Assembly (NCBI RefSeq): GCF_022808775.1
Contig: NZ_JAKZLA010000010.1
Coordinates: 1 to 45,667, forward strand
Direction: 5' to 3'
Source of the DNA: Geothrix terrae
Lineage (GTDB): Bacteria; Acidobacteriota; Holophagae; Holophagales; Holophagaceae
Length of the DNA: 45,667 bases
In this document: in pieces, positions 38,070 to 45,667 of the stretch
Numbering within the stretch: the first letter of the stretch is position 1
Layout of the letters: every line of letters starts with the position of its first letter
Program-made: the position numbers and the translations under genes
Notes under the pieces: generated by a model
What the model was told of the DNA's origin: nothing
The model's database searches: none
The model's input: the letters and a program-made list of their open reading frames with translations, nothing else

Positions 38070-38543
38070 TCACATGCCCCCCCCGGGACCCGGTTCCAGG
38101 GGTTTCGCCCAGTGGCGGAGCCGGGGGGCGAAGGCCAGGAACAGGAGCGGGGACAGCACGATGAAGCCGAACACGTGCCGCGGAGCGTAGGCCCCCACGA
38201 GCAGCCAGTACACCAGTCCGTAGAGGCTGCTCAGCTCGAACAGCGCCGCGTAGAGCAGGGTCTCGCGGAGGATCACCCCGGCCTGCTGCGGGACGGGGAC
38301 CCCGGGAAAGGCCTTCAGCACGGCTCCGCGCCGCCAGAGCACCCAGGCGGCGGAGAATAAGACCAAGCCGGTAAAGAGATGGCCCACTTGGAGATAAGTT
38401 CCCTCCGGCGGATGGCTTCCGGGGGGTAAGAGGCCGGACAGGATCAGGGCCCCGACGAGGATGGGCGTGCCCAGGCAGAGGGCCAGCCCGACGAGGCTGG
38501 CTTGGCGGCAAGCCGCCCGGAGGTGCTCGGGCGCCTCGGTCAC
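38070..38543 (-). CDS. Hypothetical four-helix membrane protein
   Basis: 157 residues with four hydrophobic helices, at about 14-38 (ASLVGLALCLGTPILVGAL), 50-70 (YLQVGHLFTGLVLFSAAWVL), 88-115 (GVILRETLLYAALFELSSLY) and 120-140 (HVFGFIVLSPLLFLAFAPRL). Glutamate and histidine residues lie within or next to the helices. I do not recognise the family. It overlaps scpA by four bases (ATGA) and is therefore probably translated together with it, although a functional link to chromosome condensation is not obvious. Confidence 0.75.
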   Translation of the reverse strand: MTEAPEHLRAACRQASLVGLALCLGTPILVGALILSGLLPPGSHPPEGTYLQVGHLFTGLVLFSAAWVLWRRGAVLKAFPGVPVPQQAGVILRETLLYAALFELSSLYGLVYWLLVGAYAPRHVFGFIVLSPLLFLAFAPRLRHWAKPLEPGPGGGM

Positions 38544-39355
38544 GCGGCCTCGGAGGCCTTGACGCGGATCTCCCCGAACGCCTCACCCTGGACCAGGGAG
38601 ATGCGGCCGGTCCGCACCAGCTCCAGCAGGGCCAGGAAGGTCAGCACCAGCTCCTCCCGGGTCCGCGCCGGGCCCAGCAGGCCCTGGAAGGGCTTCCACA
38701 GCCCATCCTGGAGGTCACGGAGCACCTCCATCACCCGCTGCTCCAGCGTCTTGGGCTGGGTCCGCACCTCCACCGGCGGCGGCGGAAGAAGTCGCTTGAG
38801 GGCTTCGCGGTAGGCGCCGAGCAGGTCGAACAGCGTGGCCCGGATGGGTTCGTCCTCCACGCGCTTGTGGTCTTCCAGGTCCAGGCCCGGAGCGAAGGCC
38901 ACCTTCTGCCAGACGGACTCGCGATCCGACAGGACCAGGGCGGCGGCCTTCACCTGCTGGTAGTCCAGCAGGCGCTGCACCAGCGCCTCGCGGGGATCCT
39001 CTTCGCCCGATTCCTGGGGCGGACGGGGCAGCATGAGCCGCGACTTGATCTGCAGCAGCTGGGCCGCCATGGCCACGAACTCCGCCGCGATCTCCAGATT
39101 CAGCTCCTCCATGAGCTTGAGGTATTCCATGTACTGCCGCGTGACCTCCGCCATGGGCAGATTCAGGATGTCCAGTTTCTGCTCGTGGATGAGGTGCAGA
39201 AGCAGGTCCAGGGGCCCTTCGAAGGCCGACAGATGGAGCGCCAGCCCGCGGAATTTCGTCTCGAAGCCCTTGGGTGGCTCGAACGTCTTCGAGGCCTCCG
39301 GCGCGGGCGCACCTTCAGCCACGGATTCGGGAATTTCCTGGGGGGTGTCGGACAT
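38540..39355 (-). CDS. scpA: ScpA, segregation and condensation protein A
   Basis: Kleisin subunit that bridges the two SMC heads, working with ScpB in chromosome condensation and segregation. The 271 residues contain the N-terminal kleisin signature FEGPLDLLLHLIHEQKLDI, the following helix LEIAAEFVAMAAQLLQIKSR, an acidic linker, and the C-terminal winged-helix segment (TREELVLTFLALLELVRTGR). An extra N-terminal extension of about 40 residues is Pro/Glu-rich. TAGAAT ends six bases before ATG 39355 with no Shine-Dalgarno sequence. scpB is not adjacent in the window. Confidence 0.95.
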   Translation of the reverse strand: MSDTPQEIPESVAEGAPAPEASKTFEPPKGFETKFRGLALHLSAFEGPLDLLLHLIHEQKLDILNLPMAEVTRQYMEYLKLMEELNLEIAAEFVAMAAQLLQIKSRLMLPRPPQESGEEDPREALVQRLLDYQQVKAAALVLSDRESVWQKVAFAPGLDLEDHKRVEDEPIRATLFDLLGAYREALKRLLPPPPVEVRTQPKTLEQRVMEVLRDLQDGLWKPFQGLLGPARTREELVLTFLALLELVRTGRISLVQGEAFGEIRVKASEAA

Positions 39356-39361
39356 GGGTTC

Positions 39362-39367
39362 ATTCTA
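39362..39367 (-). promoter_or_regulatory. -10-like TAGAAT, six bases before scpA
   Basis: On the minus strand TAGAAT is followed by GAACCC and the scpA ATG. It is close to the -10 consensus and there is no ribosome-binding site in the gap, consistent with leaderless transcription. Confidence 0.45.
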
Positions 39368-39415
39368 GCCGAATCCCGTGTTTTCCCGGCCCTTGGCAAG
39401 GCAATCTCCAGCTGC

Positions 39416-39496
39416 GGATGAACACAGATAAACGCAGATATAAAAGGAAGATGGCTGGTTCCATTTGAATCCATCCGTGTTCATCTGTGTCCATCC
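39416..39496. repeat. Imperfect inverted-repeat element between scpA and lipA
   Basis: Left arm 39416-39439 and right arm 39473-39496 are inverted repeats of 24 bases with four mismatches, separated by 33 AT-richer bases. The arms consist of GATGAACACAGAT-type units, which are themselves near-repeats of one another. Similar strings (GAACACAGATAAAC) are, to my knowledge, common as short dispersed intergenic repeats in unrelated bacterial genomes. There is no coding capacity. The right arm ends directly at an alternative lipA ATG (39497). Confidence 0.7.
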
Positions 39497-39523
39497 ATGG
39501 CCATTCGTCCACAATGGAAGGCC

Positions 39524-40408
39524 ATGGCTCGCCCTCCCGTCCTCCCCGGTCCCCGTCCCGATTGGCTGAAGATCCGCGTGCCAGCGCCGGAGGTGGTGGC
39601 GGAGGTCGAGGGGCTCATCCGCGAACAGCGGCTGGTGACGGTCTGCGAGGAGGCCCGCTGCCCCAACCTGCACGAGTGCTGGGGCGTCCACCGCACGGCC
39701 ACCTTCATGCTCATGGGCGACATCTGCACCCGGCACTGCGGCTTCTGCAACGTGGGCAAGGGCCGCCCGGGCGAGCTGGACCCGGGGGAACCCCAGCGCG
39801 TGGCCGAAGCCGTCGCCCGCCTGGGCCTGAAGTTCGCGGTGGTCACCTCCGTGAACCGCGACGACCTTCCGGACGGGGGGTCCGCACACTTCGCCGCCAC
39901 CATCCAGTGGATCCGCACCCTGTCGCCCCACTGCGGAGTGGAGGTGCTCATCCCCGACTTCCGCGGCCGCGAGGCGGATCTGCTTGCGGTGCTGGAGGCC
40001 CGGCCCGATGTGCTGAACCACAACGTCGAGACGGTGCCCCACCTCTACCGGCGGGTGCGGCCGGACGCAGACTACGCCCAGAGCCTCACGGTGCTCCGCC
40101 GGACGGCGGAGTGGCGCGATGTCCACGCCCCGGCCATGCGGGTGAAGAGCGGCATCATGGTGGGCCTGGGCGAAACGCCCGACCAGGTGCTCGAGCTGAT
40201 GGCCGACTGGCGGAAGAGCCGCGTGGACATCGCCACCATCGGCCAGTACCTCCCGCCCTCGGAGCTGCACCTGCCCCTGGACCGCTTCGTGGAACCGGCC
40301 GAGTTCGACCTGTACCGCCAGAAGGGCCTGGAGATGGGCTTCCAGCGGGTGGAGTCCGCCCCACTCGTGCGGTCCAGCTACCACGCGAAGGAGAGCTTCG
40401 AGGGCTAA
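39524..40408 (+). CDS. lipA: Lipoyl synthase
   Basis: Radical SAM enzyme that inserts two sulfurs into the octanoyl chain on lipoyl domains. With ATG 39524 it has 294 residues; an ATG at 39497 would add nine residues read from the edge of the repeat element. GGAAG lies just before 39524. Visible are the auxiliary-cluster cysteines (CEEARCPNLHECW), the radical SAM motif CTRHCGFCNV, the VVTSVNRDDLPDGGS block, NHNVETVPHLYRRVRP, KSGIMVGLGET, and the C-terminal RSSYHA serine that ligates the auxiliary cluster. lipB is not adjacent. It is convergent with a gene encoding a GcvH-like domain. Confidence 0.95.
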   Translation: MARPPVLPGPRPDWLKIRVPAPEVVAEVEGLIREQRLVTVCEEARCPNLHECWGVHRTATFMLMGDICTRHCGFCNVGKGRPGELDPGEPQRVAEAVARLGLKFAVVTSVNRDDLPDGGSAHFAATIQWIRTLSPHCGVEVLIPDFRGREADLLAVLEARPDVLNHNVETVPHLYRRVRPDADYAQSLTVLRRTAEWRDVHAPAMRVKSGIMVGLGETPDQVLELMADWRKSRVDIATIGQYLPPSELHLPLDRFVEPAEFDLYRQKGLEMGFQRVESAPLVRSSYHAKESFEG

Positions 40409-40424
40409 GCCCCCGAAGCTCTCC
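40390..40424. terminator. Hairpin with the lipA stop codon as loop
   Basis: The 16-base arms 40390-40405 and 40409-40424 pair with one A-C mismatch. The three-base loop is the lipA TAA. It lies between convergent lipA and the response-regulator gene and probably acts as a bidirectional terminator, although no T-run follows. Confidence 0.65.
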
Positions 40425-40449
40425 CGCTCTCCCGACAGACGGCCGAGGC

Positions 40450-41571
40450 TCAGACCCGGGCGTGTTCGCTCTGCCCCAGGAACTGCTTCTCGAAGGTGGA
40501 CCAGTCCAGGGTGCCGGCGGCCAGGGGTTCCTCGGCCGTGCGGAAGCGGGTGATCTCATCCTGGTACCAGTCGATGACGGGCTGGCCGATCTTGAGGGCC
40601 GGCAGCTCGCCCGCCAGGTCGCTGGGCGTCATCAGGCAGACCCAGCCGCGATCGTAGGGACTGTGCATGAGGTCGGAGGGCGTGGAGAGGAGACCCTCAT
40701 TGTGGTGCTCGACGCTACCGCTGAGCGGCGCGATCACGTGGACTTCGCCGGAGGCACCCTTCAAGGTGAACAGGATGTCGCCCTGCCGAACCTTCTTCCC
40801 CCGTTCCGGGAGCACCACGCCCTTCACCGAGCCGAGGGCCTTCCGCACGAAGTCGTCGATGCCCACGCGGATCTGACCCTCGGGCTCGATGCGCACCCAG
40901 GCGTGGCCTGTGGACAGGAACGCGCCGCCGGGAACGCAGAACTCGCTGGCGGACAGGACCTCGGCCATCTCCGGGGCCACCACGCGCACATTCGGGCGCC
41001 GCTGGGCCTCGATGCGGGCCTCGCGCTTGATGAGGATCTTCTTCGCGAACTCGGCCAGCTCATCGGCGGTGAAGGGCTTCTGGACGTATTCACAAGCCCC
41101 GAACTGGAGGGTCTGCACCGCGGTGTCGATGCTGCCATAGCCGGTGATCACCACCACATCCAGGTCCGGCCGGAGATGCTTGGCCGCCTTCACCACATCC
41201 ACGCCATCCATATCCGGCATCTTGAGGTCCGTGAAGAGGAAGTCGTAGTCGTGACGCTGGATCAGGCCCAGAGCCTCGGGACCGTGCTCGACGGTGTCCA
41301 CGCTGAAGCCTTCGAGCACCAGGATCCGCCGGAAGGAGTCCAGCACCACCGCCTCGTCATCCACCGCCAGGATCCTGGCCTTGGGGTTGGGGACCTCCAC
41401 GCGCTTCAGGCTCTTGGCCTCGTAGGTGAAGTCGAGGTGGATGGCGGTGTTCAGCACGGCTTCCCGAGCCTGACGCTCACGCTTCTCCCGCATGCGGCGG
41501 AGGCTCGTGCGCACCAGGAAGTCGATGCCCACGAAGGCGACGAACATGAAAAGGATCAGCAGGGCGGTCAT
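40450..41571 (-). CDS. Membrane-anchored response regulator fused to a GcvH-like domain
   Basis: 373 residues. An N-terminal hydrophobic helix (residues 2-20) would tether it to the membrane, followed by a basic linker. A receiver domain spans about 65-185: acidic pair D71/D72, phosphoacceptor D115 in FTDLKMP, T143 and K165. Residues about 220-318 match glycine-cleavage H protein: HAWVRIEPEGQIRVGIDDF, APLSGSVEHHNEGL, PYDRGW. The position of the lipoylated lysine, eight residues before P282, is S274, so lipoylation is not expected. There is no DNA-binding domain. It lies nine bases after the kinase stop, which overlaps an AGGAGG ribosome-binding site. Probably a protein-protein output within a membrane redox module. 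Confidence 0.88.
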   Translation of the reverse strand: MTALLILFMFVAFVGIDFLVRTSLRRMREKRERQAREAVLNTAIHLDFTYEAKSLKRVEVPNPKARILAVDDEAVVLDSFRRILVLEGFSVDTVEHGPEALGLIQRHDYDFLFTDLKMPDMDGVDVVKAAKHLRPDLDVVVITGYGSIDTAVQTLQFGACEYVQKPFTADELAEFAKKILIKREARIEAQRRPNVRVVAPEMAEVLSASEFCVPGGAFLSTGHAWVRIEPEGQIRVGIDDFVRKALGSVKGVVLPERGKKVRQGDILFTLKGASGEVHVIAPLSGSVEHHNEGLLSTPSDLMHSPYDRGWVCLMTPSDLAGELPALKIGQPVIDWYQDEITRFRTAEEPLAAGTLDWSTFEKQFLGQSEHARV

Positions 41572-41580
41572 GGGAACCTC

Positions 41581-43113
41581 CTAGGTGGTGGTGGGAATGG
41601 GGAGTGGTCCGGTGCCCTCGCCGGGGCCGGCGGACGCGGGGATGCGGAGGGTGAAGCAGGTGCCCTGGCCGGGATCGCTGTGGACCTCCAGGGCTCCGCC
41701 GTGGGCTTCCACGATGCCCCAGCTCACCGCGAGGCCCAGGCCCGTGCCGTGGCTCCCCTTGGTCGTGTAGAACGGTTCGAAGATGCGCGGCAGGTCTTCC
41801 GCCGGGATGCCACGACCGTTGTCCTGGACGAGCATTTCCACCGAGCCATCTGTGCCGGCCCGCGTGGTGAGCTTGATGGTGCCACCCTCGCCGTTGATGG
41901 CATCCCCGGCGTTCAGCAACAGATTCACCGCCACCTGCTGGATCTGATTCGCGTCCGCGTGGACCACGGGAAGCTGCGGAGCCAGGTCCAGCGACAGGTC
42001 CACCTGGTTCAGGGACAGCTGGGTCATCACCACGGACACGGCCCGCCGCACCACCTCATTCAGGTCCATGGGCTTGCGGGCAGGCGGCGTGGGTCGGGCG
42101 AAGTCGAGCAAACCGCGGATGATCCCGCGGCACCGGACGGTCTCACGCACGATCACATCCAGGTCATCGCAGGAATCCTTGTCGCCATCCAGCCGCTTGC
42201 GCAGCAGGGATGCGTAGCTCAGCACCCCCGTCAGCGGATTGTTGATCTCGTGGGCCACGCCAGCGGCCAGCCGTCCCACGGAGGCCAGCTTGTCCGCCTG
42301 GGCCAGCTGCCGCTGGGTCTCGGCCAGCCGCTGGGACATGGTGTTGAAGGCGCCGGCCAGTTCCCCCAGCTCGTGGTTGCCGCTCACGGGGATGGTGGTG
42401 CCGAGGTCCCCCTCGCCCACCCGGCGGGTGCCCGCCACGAGGGCCGCCACGGGCTTGACCACCAGGCTCCGGTTGAGGAACCAGAGGATCAGTCCGCCCG
42501 CCAGGATGGCCACGGTGGCGGAGACCACCATCAGCGTCCGGCTGTGGCTGATCTCGCGGTCCACCTCGGCCAGGGAGACGTTCACATCAAGGACCCCCAG
42601 CAGGCTCTGCTTCTCGCTGTGGGCATGGCAGGCCGCCGTCGAGCAGGACGGTTCATTGGGGATGGGGTTGATGAGCCCCAGGATGCGGGTCCCATCCTGA
42701 GCGCGAAAGGTGCGGGCCCGGGCCTGGATGCCGAGGCGCTCCAGGGGGCGTCCCTCGGCGTGGCAGGCGTAGCAGGCCTCGCCGCGGATATCCAGGCTGG
42801 TGCCGATCTCCTCCTCCGCCGAGGAGAACATGATGCGACCCTCCTTGTTGAACACCCGCACCTTCCGGATGCCCTCCCCACGCAGGTCGCCCACCGCCCG
42901 GATCTGGCGGTGCAGGTTCTCTCGCCGATTCTCCAGCATGTCGAAGTGGGTGGCGCTCTTGATGGTCTCGCTGAGCTGGTCGGCGCTGCGGGTGCGTTCG
43001 GCGAGGAGCTGGGCCGTGTGGGATCGGAGGACGGCGAAGGCCATGCCTCCGATCACCACCGCGGTCGCGAAGCCGGCGCCCAGGACGAGCCGCGTGCCGA
43101 TTCGGGTTCGCAT
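41581..43113 (-). CDS. Sensor histidine kinase with periplasmic c-type heme motifs
   Basis: 510 residues. Transmembrane helices at about 9-29 and 193-213 bracket a periplasmic domain with two heme-attachment motifs: C114-x2-C117-H118 (CYACH) and C157-x4-C162-H163 (CSTAACH). HAMP follows at about 214-267, then the HisKA domain with phospho-accepting H288 in VAHEINNPL. The HATPase has N-box NLLLNAGDAI (catalytic N401), DNGRGI at 431-436 and GTGLGL at 456-461. It probably senses periplasmic redox state or a heme ligand. It starts one base after the nrfD-like stop with AGGAGG and precedes its likely response regulator. There is no catalytic anomaly in the kinase core. Confidence 0.92.
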   Translation of the reverse strand: MRTRIGTRLVLGAGFATAVVIGGMAFAVLRSHTAQLLAERTRSADQLSETIKSATHFDMLENRRENLHRQIRAVGDLRGEGIRKVRVFNKEGRIMFSSAEEEIGTSLDIRGEACYACHAEGRPLERLGIQARARTFRAQDGTRILGLINPIPNEPSCSTAACHAHSEKQSLLGVLDVNVSLAEVDREISHSRTLMVVSATVAILAGGLILWFLNRSLVVKPVAALVAGTRRVGEGDLGTTIPVSGNHELGELAGAFNTMSQRLAETQRQLAQADKLASVGRLAAGVAHEINNPLTGVLSYASLLRKRLDGDKDSCDDLDVIVRETVRCRGIIRGLLDFARPTPPARKPMDLNEVVRRAVSVVMTQLSLNQVDLSLDLAPQLPVVHADANQIQQVAVNLLLNAGDAINGEGGTIKLTTRAGTDGSVEMLVQDNGRGIPAEDLPRIFEPFYTTKGSHGTGLGLAVSWGIVEAHGGALEVHSDPGQGTCFTLRIPASAGPGEGTGPLPIPTTT

Positions 43114-43114
43114 G

Positions 43115-44293
43115 CTAGCTCCTCCTGGAGAGCTCCTTGGCGCCAGCGACCGGACCCTCGGGGAAGACTGAGAAGGTGCGGACGGCGAAGGCGAAGACCG
43201 CCATGCCGATGGCTACGAGGCCGAGGGAGACGGTGATCTCCATGGCCGAGGGGAGGTAGCGGGTGCCGGAAGCCGCCTCCATGCCCGTGATGCTCACGTT
43301 GAGGCGGTTCATGACGAACCCGAGCACCGCGAGGAAGGCGCCGGCCACCAGCCAATCGGGATTCGTGCGCAGCTTCCGGAAGGACATCAGCACCACAGGC
43401 AGCACCACGCCCAGCGCGAACTCGACGAGGAACATGCGTCCTTCATAGCTGAGATCGAAGATCGTCCCGAACGCATGGTTGCGGGCGATCCCCTGCAGCC
43501 GCATGAGGCCGTAGATGCCGAGCGCCACCACCATGCCCCGGGCCAGGGGCTCCAGGAGATCCATCTCCAGGTGGCGGTGGAAGGCCCGCTTGCTGAGGTA
43601 GGATTCCAGGACGATCATGCCGATGCCCGCCCCGATGGCCGAAATGTAGAAGTGCAGCGGCAGCATCGGTGAATACCAGAGCGGGTGCAGCTTGCTGGGG
43701 ACGATGAGGTAGAGGGAGCCCAGCGAGGATTGGTGGAGGGTCGAGAGGATCACGCCGAGGATGACCAGGGGTGTGATGAGCTGGTGGATGAACTTCGCCG
43801 GCGTGTGGAAGCCGAAGTACTCGAAGACCACCGGGGAGAACTCCACCGCCAGCACCGTGGTGTAGAGCATCACGCACCAGGCCACCTCGAACATGACCGA
43901 GTGCGTGTTCCAGTAGACGATGGCATGCCAGATGCGCCAAGGCTGGCCCAAGTCCAGCAGCAGCGCCACGATCACGAACGCATAGCCCAGGAAGCCCGTG
44001 AGGATGGTGGGGCGGACGATGGGCTCGTAGCGGCGCAGGTTGAAGAGATGGACCACCGCCGTGAGGGTGAATGCGCCGGCGGCCAGGCCCACGCCGCAGA
44101 GGAGGTCGAAGCCGATCCAGAGACCCCAGGGGAACTGGTCGCTCAGATTGGTGACGGCGCCCAACCCTTTGGTATAGCGGATCACGGACACGGCGCAGAA
44201 CGCGAGGAAGAGGATCACGAATACCGCGGTCCAGAAGCCGGGCCGGAAGCGGCGTCCGGCCAGCGTGGCGGGCGTGGTGAGCGTGGTGTTCAT
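43115..44293 (-). CDS. NrfD/HybB/PsrC-type membrane quinone-interacting subunit
   Basis: 392 residues from ATG 44293 (GGAGG upstream), with about ten transmembrane helices. The blocks QFPWGLWIGFDLLCGVGLAAG and LGQPWRIWHAIVYWNTHSV and the late FMNRLNVSITGME segment place it nearest the ten-helix HybB branch. Such proteins exchange electrons between quinone and a partner iron-sulfur subunit and may translocate protons. The ATG overlaps the ferredoxin stop by four bases. No molybdopterin or multiheme catalytic subunit is next to it, which is unusual. Confidence 0.92.
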   Translation of the reverse strand: MNTTLTTPATLAGRRFRPGFWTAVFVILFLAFCAVSVIRYTKGLGAVTNLSDQFPWGLWIGFDLLCGVGLAAGAFTLTAVVHLFNLRRYEPIVRPTILTGFLGYAFVIVALLLDLGQPWRIWHAIVYWNTHSVMFEVAWCVMLYTTVLAVEFSPVVFEYFGFHTPAKFIHQLITPLVILGVILSTLHQSSLGSLYLIVPSKLHPLWYSPMLPLHFYISAIGAGIGMIVLESYLSKRAFHRHLEMDLLEPLARGMVVALGIYGLMRLQGIARNHAFGTIFDLSYEGRMFLVEFALGVVLPVVLMSFRKLRTNPDWLVAGAFLAVLGFVMNRLNVSITGMEAASGTRYLPSAMEITVSLGLVAIGMAVFAFAVRTFSVFPEGPVAGAKELSRRS

Positions 44294-45069
44294 GACCGGT
44301 CCTCCCGTCCGTGGCCTTGCCCGTCGCGGCCGTTCCCGTTTCCATTGGCCGTGGCCTTCGCCACCTCCTCCCGCCGGGCGGTGATCCAGTGCACCCCGTA
44401 GAGGAAGACGGCCCATACCGCGACGAAGTCCGGGATGTTGGACAGCACCTGCCAGGTCTTCATGGCCGGAGGCTCTCCGGGCAGGTTGGACTTCAGCCCC
44501 AGCTTGTCGAAGGGCACGTTGGAGATCATCAGGACCGACGTGCCGCCGGCCTCCGTGAGCCCGTAGATGTGGTCGACGTAGGCGCCGGGCTTCTGGCGGA
44601 TGCGCGTCCGGGCCTCCCAGATCAAATCCTCCTTCTTCCCGAAGATGGTGGCCTCCGCCGGACAGGCCTCCGCACAGGCGGTGGGTTTGCCCTCCTTGAG
44701 GCGGCCCGCGCACATGATGCACTTGCCGACCACGGGCACGGGCCGATCCCACTGGTACTTCGGGATCTCGAAGGGGCAGGCCATCATGCAGTAACGGCAG
44801 CCCATGCAGCGCTCGGCATCGTAGACCACGGGGCCTTCCGGCGTCTTCTTCAGGGCGCCCACGGGGCAGACGGAGGCGCAGGTGGGCACTTCGCAGTGCA
44901 TGCACAGGCGCCGCACGTTGAGGCCCTCCCGCTCCTGGACCGTGGTCCAGGTGTAGGCCGTCAACACCTCCTCTACCTTCCCCGGTAGCTTGTTCTGCTC
45001 CTTGCAGGCGGAGCTGCAGGCGCCGCATCCGATGCAGCGCGTCGCGTCAAAGAGAAGGCCCATGCCCAT
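44290..45069 (-). CDS. HybA/DsrO/PsrB-like four-cluster ferredoxin with C-terminal membrane helix
   Basis: 259 residues from ATG 45069, chosen because AGGAG lies five bases upstream; ATG 45063 is an alternative. Four [4Fe-4S] sets are visible: C12/15/18/22, C56/59/64/68, C88/91/94/98 and C117/120/132/136. One hydrophobic helix lies at about 214-229 (DFVAVWAVFLYGVHWIT), followed by a polar Asn/Gly/Arg-rich tail. HybA-type proteins normally carry a Tat signal. Here the first cysteine motif starts at residue 12 and no twin-arginine leader exists in any plausible start, so the clusters probably face the cytoplasm. It is the first gene of the four-gene redox operon. Confidence 0.9.
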   Translation of the reverse strand: MGMGLLFDATRCIGCGACSSACKEQNKLPGKVEEVLTAYTWTTVQEREGLNVRRLCMHCEVPTCASVCPVGALKKTPEGPVVYDAERCMGCRYCMMACPFEIPKYQWDRPVPVVGKCIMCAGRLKEGKPTACAEACPAEATIFGKKEDLIWEARTRIRQKPGAYVDHIYGLTEAGGTSVLMISNVPFDKLGLKSNLPGEPPAMKTWQVLSNIPDFVAVWAVFLYGVHWITARREEVAKATANGNGNGRDGQGHGREDRS

Positions 45070-45093
45070 GGGTTCTCCTGCTTTTTCAAGGTG

Positions 45094-45112
45094 CCCGGGA
45101 GACATTCCCGGG
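45094..45112. promoter_or_regulatory. Hairpin in the redox-operon leader
   Basis: CCCGGGA and TCCCGGG pair perfectly around a 5-base loop, 24 bases before the ferredoxin start codon. It could be an operator or an mRNA stem influencing translation. Confidence 0.35.
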
Positions 45113-45194
45113 GATTCGGAAGAAGCATCCATTCGGCCGGAAACATAGTCAACCCCTTGGTAGCAATTAAAAATGACGATGTTGTCTCATATAA

Positions 45195-45219
45195 GAAAAA
45201 AGCCTCGACTTTGCGAGGC
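45195..45219 (-). terminator. Minus-strand Rho-independent terminator
   Basis: On the minus strand, GCCTCG-CAAAGT-CGAGGC is followed by six T's. It lies upstream of the redox operon, 365 bases beyond the groEL terminator, and no recognised gene lies between them. Confidence 0.75.
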
Positions 45220-45306
45220 AGTTCCCAGGAACGGCGCGGGTTATGCCCTCCGGATGTTCCCGCCAGCCCACCCCATCGGGACAGATTTTCCCTTTCCGGC
45301 CCTCAG

Positions 45307-45327
45307 CCCCCCTTCGGGTGGGGTTTT
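45307..45327 (+). terminator. Possible plus-strand terminator
   Basis: CCCCCC, a TTCG loop and GGTGGGG (one bulged T) are followed by TTTT on the plus strand. No plus-strand gene precedes it, so its role is unclear. Confidence 0.4.
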
Positions 45328-45382
45328 GTCACATCGCAACGTATTCTTGGGACGTCAAAGTCCCCTTTATTTCACCTTGAAA

Positions 45383-45416
45383 CGAGAGACGCCCCGCAAT
45401 CGCGGGGCGTCTCTCG
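45383..45416. terminator. 15-bp perfect hairpin
   Basis: CGAGAGACGCCCCGC and its exact reverse complement surround the loop AATC. On the minus strand only TTTC follows, so it is at best a weak terminator. Confidence 0.55.
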
Positions 45417-45465
45417 GACAGCGGACAGCTGATGGCTGACGGCTCTTATTACAATGTCTTCCATG

Positions 45466-45508
45466 TCGCGACCATGTGGGTCGCGAAGCAGGCTCCAGTG
45501 GAGCCTGC
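45466..45508. repeat. Two adjacent perfect hairpins, REP-like
   Basis: TCGCGACC/GGTCGCGA (45466-45486, loop ATGTG) is followed at once by GCAGGCTCC/GGAGCCTGC (45488-45508, loop AGT). GCGAAGC recurs at 45483-45489 and 45507-45513, and the following GGGGCCCCAC is the reverse complement of GTGGGGCCCC found after gatC. This suggests a dispersed intergenic repeat. Confidence 0.5.
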
Positions 45509-45583
45509 GAAGCGGGGCCCCACAGGGAGCGAATCACCATCGTCGGAGAAGCCCTCCAAGCTCTCATCTCTCCCTGCATCACC

Positions 45584-45611
45584 AAAAAGGCCCCGCAACC
45601 GCGGGGCCTTT
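45584..45611 (-). terminator. groEL Rho-independent terminator
   Basis: On the minus strand, AAAGGCCCCGC and GCGGGGCCTTT pair over 11 bp around GGTT and the stem runs into a TTTTT tract, about 25 bases after the groEL stop. Confidence 0.9.
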
Positions 45612-45635
45612 CCACGAACCGCAAGTCGCGGCTGA

Positions 45636-45667
45636 TCAATACATGTCTTCCATGCCGCCCATGCCGG
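45636..45667 (-). CDS. groL: GroEL chaperonin, C-terminal end (partial)
   Basis: Only the last ten codons are inside the window: a frame ending GMGGMEDMY and TGA. The Gly-Met repeat tail is the hallmark of the GroEL C terminus, which lines the bottom of the folding chamber. The usual bacterial ending is (GGM)n with a short variable close, so EDMY is a lineage-specific ending. The gene continues beyond the right edge. The call rests on the tail and the strong terminator alone. Confidence 0.75.
   Translation of the reverse strand, partial: GMGGMEDMY

Follow-up and report, generated by a model that had tools for sequence, protein, structure and literature searches.

A membrane-anchored response regulator with a lysine-less H-protein-like domain, encoded with a heme-motif kinase and an HmcBC-type module in Geothrix terrae

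The last gene of an operon-like run in the window (the whole 45,667-nucleotide stretch of Geothrix terrae DNA analysed here) encodes a membrane-anchored response regulator, RR-GcvH, whose C-terminal domain is confirmed by structure modelling and alignment to be an H-protein fold lacking the lipoyl lysine. We propose, with about an even chance of being right, that RR-GcvH is a phosphorylation-switched docking subunit of the HmcBC-type quinone module encoded in the same run, and thereby infer heme binding, kinase-to-RR phosphotransfer, HmcBC binding and an effect on electron flow. The two-component system would be aimed at a respiratory complex and not at a promoter. The neighbouring kinase, carrying two covalent periplasmic hemes, would sense the redox state there and phosphorylate D115 of RR-GcvH, tethered at the inner face of the membrane; phosphorylation would alter the docking of the H-protein-like domain on HmcB-HmcC, from the cytoplasmic side or at the membrane helices, and the altered docking would speed up or slow down the passage of electrons between menaquinone and the iron-sulfur clusters of HmcB. 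The H-protein fold would have been retained as a docking body, and the lipoyl arm lost.

The four genes follow one another on the minus strand in the order HmcB, HmcC (NrfD family), histidine kinase and RR-GcvH (Table 1), the HmcB and HmcC frames overlapping, with gaps of 1 base between HmcC and kinase and 9 bases between kinase and RR-GcvH. Besides the single C-terminal hydrophobic tail of HmcB, we observed two hydrophobic segments in the kinase (residues 10-28 and 194-212). The best NCBIfam matches of HmcB (256.6 bits, cut-off 420) and HmcC (344.5 bits, cut-off 550) are both below cut-off. A chaperonin gene lies upstream of the operon in the related loci L003 and L013, and a lipoyl synthase gene, lipA, is found at window 39497-40408, convergent to the RR-GcvH gene. 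The sigma-70 scan of 40300-45667 gave 0 promoter-like sites against 0.5 expected, and the Rfam scan of 38500-45667 found no family at gathering level. Sigma-54 control of the operon was rejected, the whole window containing 11 matches against 18.8 expected and none upstream of hmcB.

Table 1. Features of the Geothrix terrae operon (window positions) and of the related Nitrospirota loci.
Feature	Position	Strand	Basis
Membrane-anchored response regulator (RR-GcvH) with lysine-less GcvH-like C-terminal domain	40450..41571	minus	373 aa ORF
N-terminal membrane helix, residues 2-20	41512..41568	minus	hydrophobic segment prediction
Receiver domain, residues 67-174	41050..41373	minus	Pfam Response_reg, E 2.9e-27
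Phospho-acceptor D115 codon	41227..41229	minus	residue position and alignment
GcvH-like (H-protein fold) domain, residues 222-320	40612..40908	minus	Pfam GCV_H 2.6e-15, structure model
S274 codon, at the lipoyl-lysine position of true H-proteins	40750..40752	minus	alignment
C-terminal helix LKIGQPVIDWYQDEI..., residues 326-346	40534..40596	minus	W335 in 29/29 anchored rows
Histidine kinase: periplasmic sensor, HAMP, HisKA, HATPase_c	41581..43113	minus	Pfam
Heme-c motif CYACH, kinase residues 114-118	42760..42774	minus	translation; near-identical relative
Second heme-c-like motif CSTAACH (CX4CH), kinase residues 157-163	42625..42645	minus	translation; near-identical relative
HmcC/HybB-like NrfD-family membrane protein	43115..44299	minus	10 hydrophobic segments; profile match; start codon chosen inside longer open frame
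HmcB-like ferredoxin	44290..45132	minus	16 Cys, C-terminal hydrophobic tail, without Tat signal
RR-NuoE loci	L052-L055, L058, L060-L064, L067-L070, L076, L077, L080 (e.g. L058:6801-7730)		

The receiver of RR-GcvH is intact. The residues that a first-pass annotation had named, D71/D72, D115, T143 and K165, are present at these positions and are identical in all 29 membrane-anchored rows of our 38-row alignment A1. The membrane helix proposed by the same annotation coincides with the hydrophobic segment at residues 2-20, the helix spanning residues 2-43 in the AlphaFold model; Asp17, which lies close to where the hydrophobic segment ends on the cytoplasmic side, does not vary among the 29 anchored rows, and an Asp is kept in 48/48 distinct membrane-anchored RR-GcvH N-termini read by eye. 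The protein is thus probably held in the membrane, and the receiver of the anchored form must sit in the cytoplasm. N-terminal helices compared with Pfam and NCBIfam gave nothing above cut-off. The full-length model (pLDDT 83.5, pTM 0.50) does not fix the mutual placement of anchor, receiver and C-terminal domain. It had also been claimed that the protein has no DNA-binding or enzymatic output, and indeed Pfam at E<=1 finds neither kind of domain; the other signals are two weak barrel-sandwich domain matches, below their cut-offs. In the region beyond the receiver, W225, G237, P282, N291 and W310 are invariant in all 38 rows, as is W335 in the anchored ones, and the window protein also contains C212 and C312; a pair of conserved cysteines is a trait of LbpA, the lipoate-binding proteins considered below.

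The proposed likeness of the C-terminus to GcvH holds both at the level of the Pfam match and of the predicted structure. The domain model (residues 204-360, AlphaFold from an alignment of 30 domain sequences, mean pLDDT 84.2) adopts an H-protein fold, superposing on 3a8i_E with a target-normalised TM of 0.94 and an rmsd of 1.1 (TM 0.94 also for 3ab9). Foldseek against the PDB returned 22 matches at E<=0.001, which are H-proteins, the 22nd being GcvH-L (matches were identified by title, and the chains of LIAS complexes by sequence comparison instead); the closest solved chains by sequence are likewise H-proteins (1onl_A, 1.4e-13). The score for TIGR00527, 57.5 bits, is under the cut-off of 115.85. 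We then compared RR-GcvH with the true GcvH of the same genome, which is encoded elsewhere (G000:C1), beside a gcvT recognised by reading; no glycine-cleavage partner gene is found among the identified neighbours of the window RR-GcvH. The interval G264-P282 has 17 residues in both proteins, and in this gap-free alignment the tenth residue of the core is the K of ESVK in the true GcvH and S274 in RR-GcvH, so that S274 does occupy the lipoyl-lysine position, as annotated at first.

The loss of the lysine extends over the family. Among the aligned RR-GcvH homologues we found no conserved lysine at or near the lipoyl site: the position is A in 17, T in 16, S in 8, L in 5, E in 4, D in 2, G in 1 and K in 1 of the 54 alignable receiver-GcvH segments, a set that omits 23 of the 77 distinct RR segments whose core is not 17 residues long or is mis-anchored, and a MAFFT alignment over all 77 gives Lys in 2. 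The receiver-less GcvH-like segments, true GcvH aside, have Lys in 1/27 (the lysine-column sample comprises 105 distinct out of 130 segments). As a control, 18 loci were taken by profile match alone, and Lys is present in 17/17 GcvH-sized frames, the 18th locus, L145, being a Nitrospirota RR-GcvH without lysine. The hairpin is less conserved than the rest of the domain in the anchored RR proteins (2.24 vs 3.03 bits) and in the receiver-less GcvH-like proteins (1.67 vs 2.32 bits), whereas it is more conserved in the 18 control loci (3.29 vs 2.85 bits); the two values are close in the Nitrospirota RR-GcvH (3.12 vs 3.32 bits), in which the lysine column is G in 8/8 rows. We rejected K271 as an overlooked lipoyl lysine: in the alignment it falls on the Glu of ESVK, and its column has K in 21, R in 5 and E, I and N in one each of the 29 anchored rows.

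The kinase encoded next to RR-GcvH carries CYACH and CSTAACH, both located between its two membrane segments, a predicted two-heme sensor on which the first-pass annotation was silent. A CX2CH motif together with a second CX3-5CH motif (nearly all CX4CH) is found in 81 of the 83 kinases resembling it in the fetched loci, with a spacing of ~43 residues in most of them, and 65/83 display the strict H-box pattern. These motifs suggest that the periplasmic sensor would bind heme covalently. Note that the window kinase matches Mcp40H-20_sensor weakly (E 0.0029), below the cut-off.

We next consider how constantly these genes occur together. From the best 80 of 394 matches, 78 related loci were obtained, and the cluster was counted in those 39 loci among L003-L051 whose sequence extends 3.9 kb or more upstream of the RR. 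Of these anchored RR-GcvH loci, 38/39 contain both HmcB and HmcC, and 38/39 a kinase. L047 has neither HmcBC nor kinase, and comes from the same MAG isolate (bog_363) as L045, where the full set is present with HmcBC downstream of the RR. The loci with the full set include two from MAGs, of Spirochaetia (L046) and Gammaproteobacteria (L049), where it is accompanied by multiheme cytochromes and another RR-GcvH gene (truncated at the locus end in L049). Closer to the window, a match at E<=1e-70 is present in 26/26 genomes searched of the genus, and one at E<=1e-55 in 6/13 other genomes of the family. The partnership with the NrfD protein and the ferredoxin that the first-pass annotation had put forward is therefore strengthened by genomic context across phyla; physical interaction would be a further step, which we propose by inference.

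The association persists where the HmcBC genes differ. In L016/L017 (DISPLACEMENT), kinase and RR are 77-79% identical to those of the window and HmcB/HmcC only 47-50%, and the sole HmcC of these genomes (E<=1e-20) is the 47% homologue, adjoining the orthologous kinase-RR pair. G. limicola holds both HmcC types, the 87% orthologue beside the RR and the 48% type elsewhere. In 4/26 genus genomes (G087, G244, G252 and G372), the single HmcC match (E<=1e-40), one of the weaker-scoring type, is found on the contig of the RR within ~4 kb; as the contig numbers and coordinates of G244 and G252 match those of the L016/L017 genomes, the total is probably about four genomes, not six. A distant HmcC beside the same kinase-RR pair may be read as selection to keep HmcBC adjoining kinase and RR. 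The window's genome itself has a second, diverged HmcC-like gene, G000:C9:351619-352686, and in some relatives it is an HmcC scoring like this copy that adjoins the heme kinase and RR-GcvH.

The possible contacts depend on where HmcB resides relative to the membrane. HmcB is without a Tat signal in the Holophagaceae loci and in L111, L112, L117, L118, L127 and L129; its clusters may then be cytoplasmic and within reach of the GcvH-like domain. In 11 loci, including L046, L049 and L114, HmcB has a Tat signal (counted by reading, leaving out L123, whose motif is inside an over-long start); there, the Fe-S part should be periplasmic, so that a cytoplasmic GcvH-like domain could contact only HmcC or the membrane helices. 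According to the available text of one study, another signal-less tail-anchored ferredoxin is thought to be exported with its hydrogenase partner (PMC10924467). No gene for a hydrogenase partner was seen in the window operon, and the window HmcB might conceivably be exported by hitchhiking on a protein encoded elsewhere. As to the direction of electron transfer, the available text of PMC6303296 describes QrcABCD as electrogenic and HmcC as closely related to QrcD, and calls the direction for HmcC uncertain.

RR-GcvH belongs to a larger family, much of it devoid of receivers. Searching 396 Acidobacteriota genomes with the domain profile yields, besides true GcvH, many longer GcvH-like frames, often in tandem. 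In 20 regions picked from strong matches, not at random (L111-L130), the GcvH-like genes are without receiver in 16 (L111-L119, L124-L130) and with receiver in 4 (L120-L123). The idea of a distinctive response-regulator output type was too narrow, since many lysine-less GcvH-like proteins of HmcBC/kinase clusters have no receiver. Their N-termini vary between an Asp-type anchor as in the window protein (the L129 protein, for example, has such a helix), other anchors, and a Cys motif without clear anchor; reading 20 receiver-less proteins with a hydrophobic N-terminal segment, we found a late Asp in 10 and a Glu in 1. The Cys motif, CVWMLAGIVDYKLCDRDYECEQC (C-WM-AG--YKLCDR-[YF]-C--C), is a possible metal or Fe-S site, carried by L111:7649-8698, L112:7131-8168, L113:7833-8702, L118:9110-9883, L130:7983-8726 and partly by L117:9574-10326; three such N-termini tried against Pfam gave no match above cut-off.

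HmcB and HmcC are both present in 17 of the 20 regions and a related kinase in 17, with both in 15 and neither in L126; L113 and L125 have the kinase without HmcBC, and L119 and L128 HmcBC without a kinase match. All but one of the 17 regional kinases (L115's) are among the heme-motif kinases, and L129's is without the CX2CH motif. In L116 and L128, hmcC and a cytochrome gene are interleaved with the receiver-less genes. Several regions encode another receiver protein after the kinase, and the one tried with Pfam (L111:1124-2485) is of the sigma-54 NtrC type. HmcC-like (NrfD) proteins with three CXXCH motifs are encoded at L111:4191-5798, L112:3705-5300, L117:7968-9542 and L118:7426-9102, and that of L111 has a C-terminal cytochrome c7 domain (Pfam).

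At the level of whole genomes, in 357 genomes outside the window's family (GcvH-like E<=2e-25, HmcC E<=1e-40), HmcC is found in 52/58 genomes with a strong GcvH-like match vs 43/299 others (Fisher p 2.6e-29, kinship ignored), the 58 including some RR-bearing genomes and weaker matches being scored as absent. HmcC lies within 10 kb of the GcvH-like match in at least 40/58 genomes, with a median start distance of 1.9 kb. An HmcC match is absent in 6/58, and in 18/58 none is within 10 kb among the matches listed, many genomes being fragmented; the HmcC of G330, present in L121, is outside those matches.

The tree, built from 71 domain sequences with a midpoint root for drawing only, was relied on for three groups: the anchored RR (97/94), true GcvH (97/89) and eight Nitrospirota RR-GcvH on a very long branch (100/100). 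The 13 true-GcvH sequences were, all but L001, chosen by their ESxK motif. The anchored RR clade groups with proteins that lack a receiver and mostly have the Asp-type anchor (88/84, not starred), and the soluble RR-GcvH of L046 and L120 branch beside true GcvH, on long branches. Judging from this placement, the fusion of a receiver to a lysine-less H-protein probably happened two or more times; repeated receiver loss would be a less simple alternative. At E<=1e-28, 4/149 Spirochaetota genomes match, with a large RR-type frame only in the genome of L046, and 23/118 Nitrospirota genomes match, all in GcvH-sized frames of 130-180 aa. The anchored RR-GcvH is thus rare in both phyla, with the note that this threshold leaves out the diverged Nitrospirota type.

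That Nitrospirota type is a soluble RR-GcvH, most often of ~255 aa, found in 17 loci. The same kind of kinase is present in 16/17 (the contig of L063 is short), with further receivers nearby. In 17/17, BLAST to L058 identifies a second fusion, RR-NuoE, of a receiver to a NuoE-like [2Fe-2S] thioredoxin-like domain, which comes directly after RR-GcvH in 16 loci and 2.5 kb away in one. A four-Cys pattern is present in 16 RR-NuoE, the remaining one being truncated at the locus end, and Pfam confirms the fusion in L058 and L077; in L058, NuoF-like and molybdopterin/NuoG-like genes come after. In L058, L061, L077 and L080, the loci that were drawn gene by gene, no HmcBC match is found near RR-GcvH. 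These four loci thus show that a receiver can be joined to an enzyme subunit alongside RR-GcvH even where HmcBC is not in the vicinity.

Direct, phosphorylation-dependent action on the complex is favoured by the absence of a DNA-binding output, the tether, the intact receiver and the joint presence of the heme kinase and HmcBC genes in a single run, as well as by the related receiver-less proteins, whose genes occupy subunit-like positions in HmcBC clusters. The main rival is an adaptor role, in which the GcvH-like domain binds the heme kinase or NtrC-type partners to set the kinase/phosphatase balance or keep the regulator at the membrane, HmcBC being merely a regulated or neighbouring pair. 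We consider this rather unlikely, yet it stays the main rival because kinase and GcvH-like gene are also found without HmcBC, as in L113 and L125 and in the four drawn Nitrospirota loci; the kinase also accompanies nearly every anchored RR and 17 of the 20 fetched GcvH-like loci, and the kinase-RR pair is intact where HmcC is of the distant type. An adaptor of the kinase is, however, not what L119 and L128 would suggest, where HmcBC occurs with no kinase match, nor the subunit-like interleaving of receiver-less genes with hmcC and the cytochrome gene in L116 and L128.

A transcriptional output, by which the domain would sequester or recruit another regulator and so act on gene expression, is improbable: other Acidobacteriota often have a receiver protein after the kinase, of which the NtrC type in L111 is an example, but the window operon has no NtrC gene and no sigma-54-like site upstream of hmcB. 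Stand-alone receivers acting as phosphate sinks are known, and RR-GcvH could likewise be a phosphate sink or membrane-held brake in which the receiver alone matters and the GcvH-like domain is a partnerless leftover fold. The drift of the lysine hairpin would fit such a role, to which we nonetheless give little credence, as the invariant residues of the domain (the five in all A1 rows and W335 in the anchored ones) and its existence without receiver in 16 of the 20 fetched loci speak against it. Lipoylation at another lysine (e.g. K271), or a non-covalent lipoate relay, is very unlikely: a convergent lipA lies just downstream in 34 of the 43 related loci whose sequence continues for 2 kb or more on that side, but no lysine is kept at or near the site, lipA is not detected in L111-L130, L046, L047 or L049, and the genome's true GcvH beside gcvT would need lipA in any case. 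We rejected a functional link between lipA and RR-GcvH, the convergent arrangement being restricted to close relatives and probably reflecting synteny.

Returning to the docking-subunit reading, we tentatively extend it, at somewhat below even chances, to a broader scheme in which receivers were grafted onto respiratory-enzyme subunits and a heme kinase gates electron flow directly through phosphorylation, in Holophagaceae by way of a membrane-tethered, lysine-less H-protein acting on HmcBC, and separately in Nitrospirota by way of NuoE together with a lysine-less H-protein. Two-component outputs usually act on DNA, second messengers or motors, and the genus Geothrix includes iron reducers. 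If RR-GcvH acts on a quinone-linked complex, it would couple the redox state outside the cytoplasm directly and rapidly to respiratory flow in Geothrix, and an H-protein without cofactor would add a new kind of subunit to redox complexes. The choice between quinone-linked electron routes in Acidobacteriota also becomes testable. In any case, the fold of a swinging-arm carrier survives here without the arm, within a family that occurs across Acidobacteriota and for which we came upon no name; in the literature covered, which excludes most subscription journals, we found no description of a GcvH-like response regulator or of lysine-less GcvH-like proteins with HmcBC.

Several known systems resemble parts of this one. 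Like the Hmc complex of Desulfovibrio, in the available text of PMC10924467, the window operon combines a tail-anchored ferredoxin with a HybB/NrfD-type quinone protein, and the D. vulgaris hmc locus also holds the regulator genes rrf1 and rrf2 (PMC10924467). It differs in that its four genes include no HmcD, HmcE or HmcF and no gene for the 16-heme cytochrome HmcA, and in that its HmcB is without Tat signal; the main text on the Hmc complex makes no mention of 'glycine cleavage' (PMC10924467). For the kinase, the available text of PMC3460858 offers the Geobacter chemoreceptors GSU0582 and GSU0935, which have covalent heme in a periplasmic sensor; these sensors have one heme each, whereas here the kinases have both a CX2CH and a CX4CH motif. 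The RR-GcvH domain shares with GcvH (PF01597, TIGR00527) its fold and ~30% identity, gap-free around the lipoyl hairpin, but it lacks the lipoyl lysine, adds a C-terminal Trp helix, a membrane helix and a receiver, is not encoded beside gcvT in the window and forms a separate branch of the tree. GcvH-L of Streptococcus pyogenes (PDB 5a35) similarly reuses the H-protein fold in a signalling setting, being encoded in a macrodomain/sirtuin operon; it is without receiver or anchor, retains the lipoyl lysine and is 17% identical to the RR-GcvH domain. LbpA of Hdr-like sulfur oxidation is, like RR-GcvH, a GcvH-like protein tied to a redox system and not to glycine cleavage, but its lysine is strictly conserved in 95 proteins according to the available text of PMC6067878, whereas RR-GcvH has lost it.
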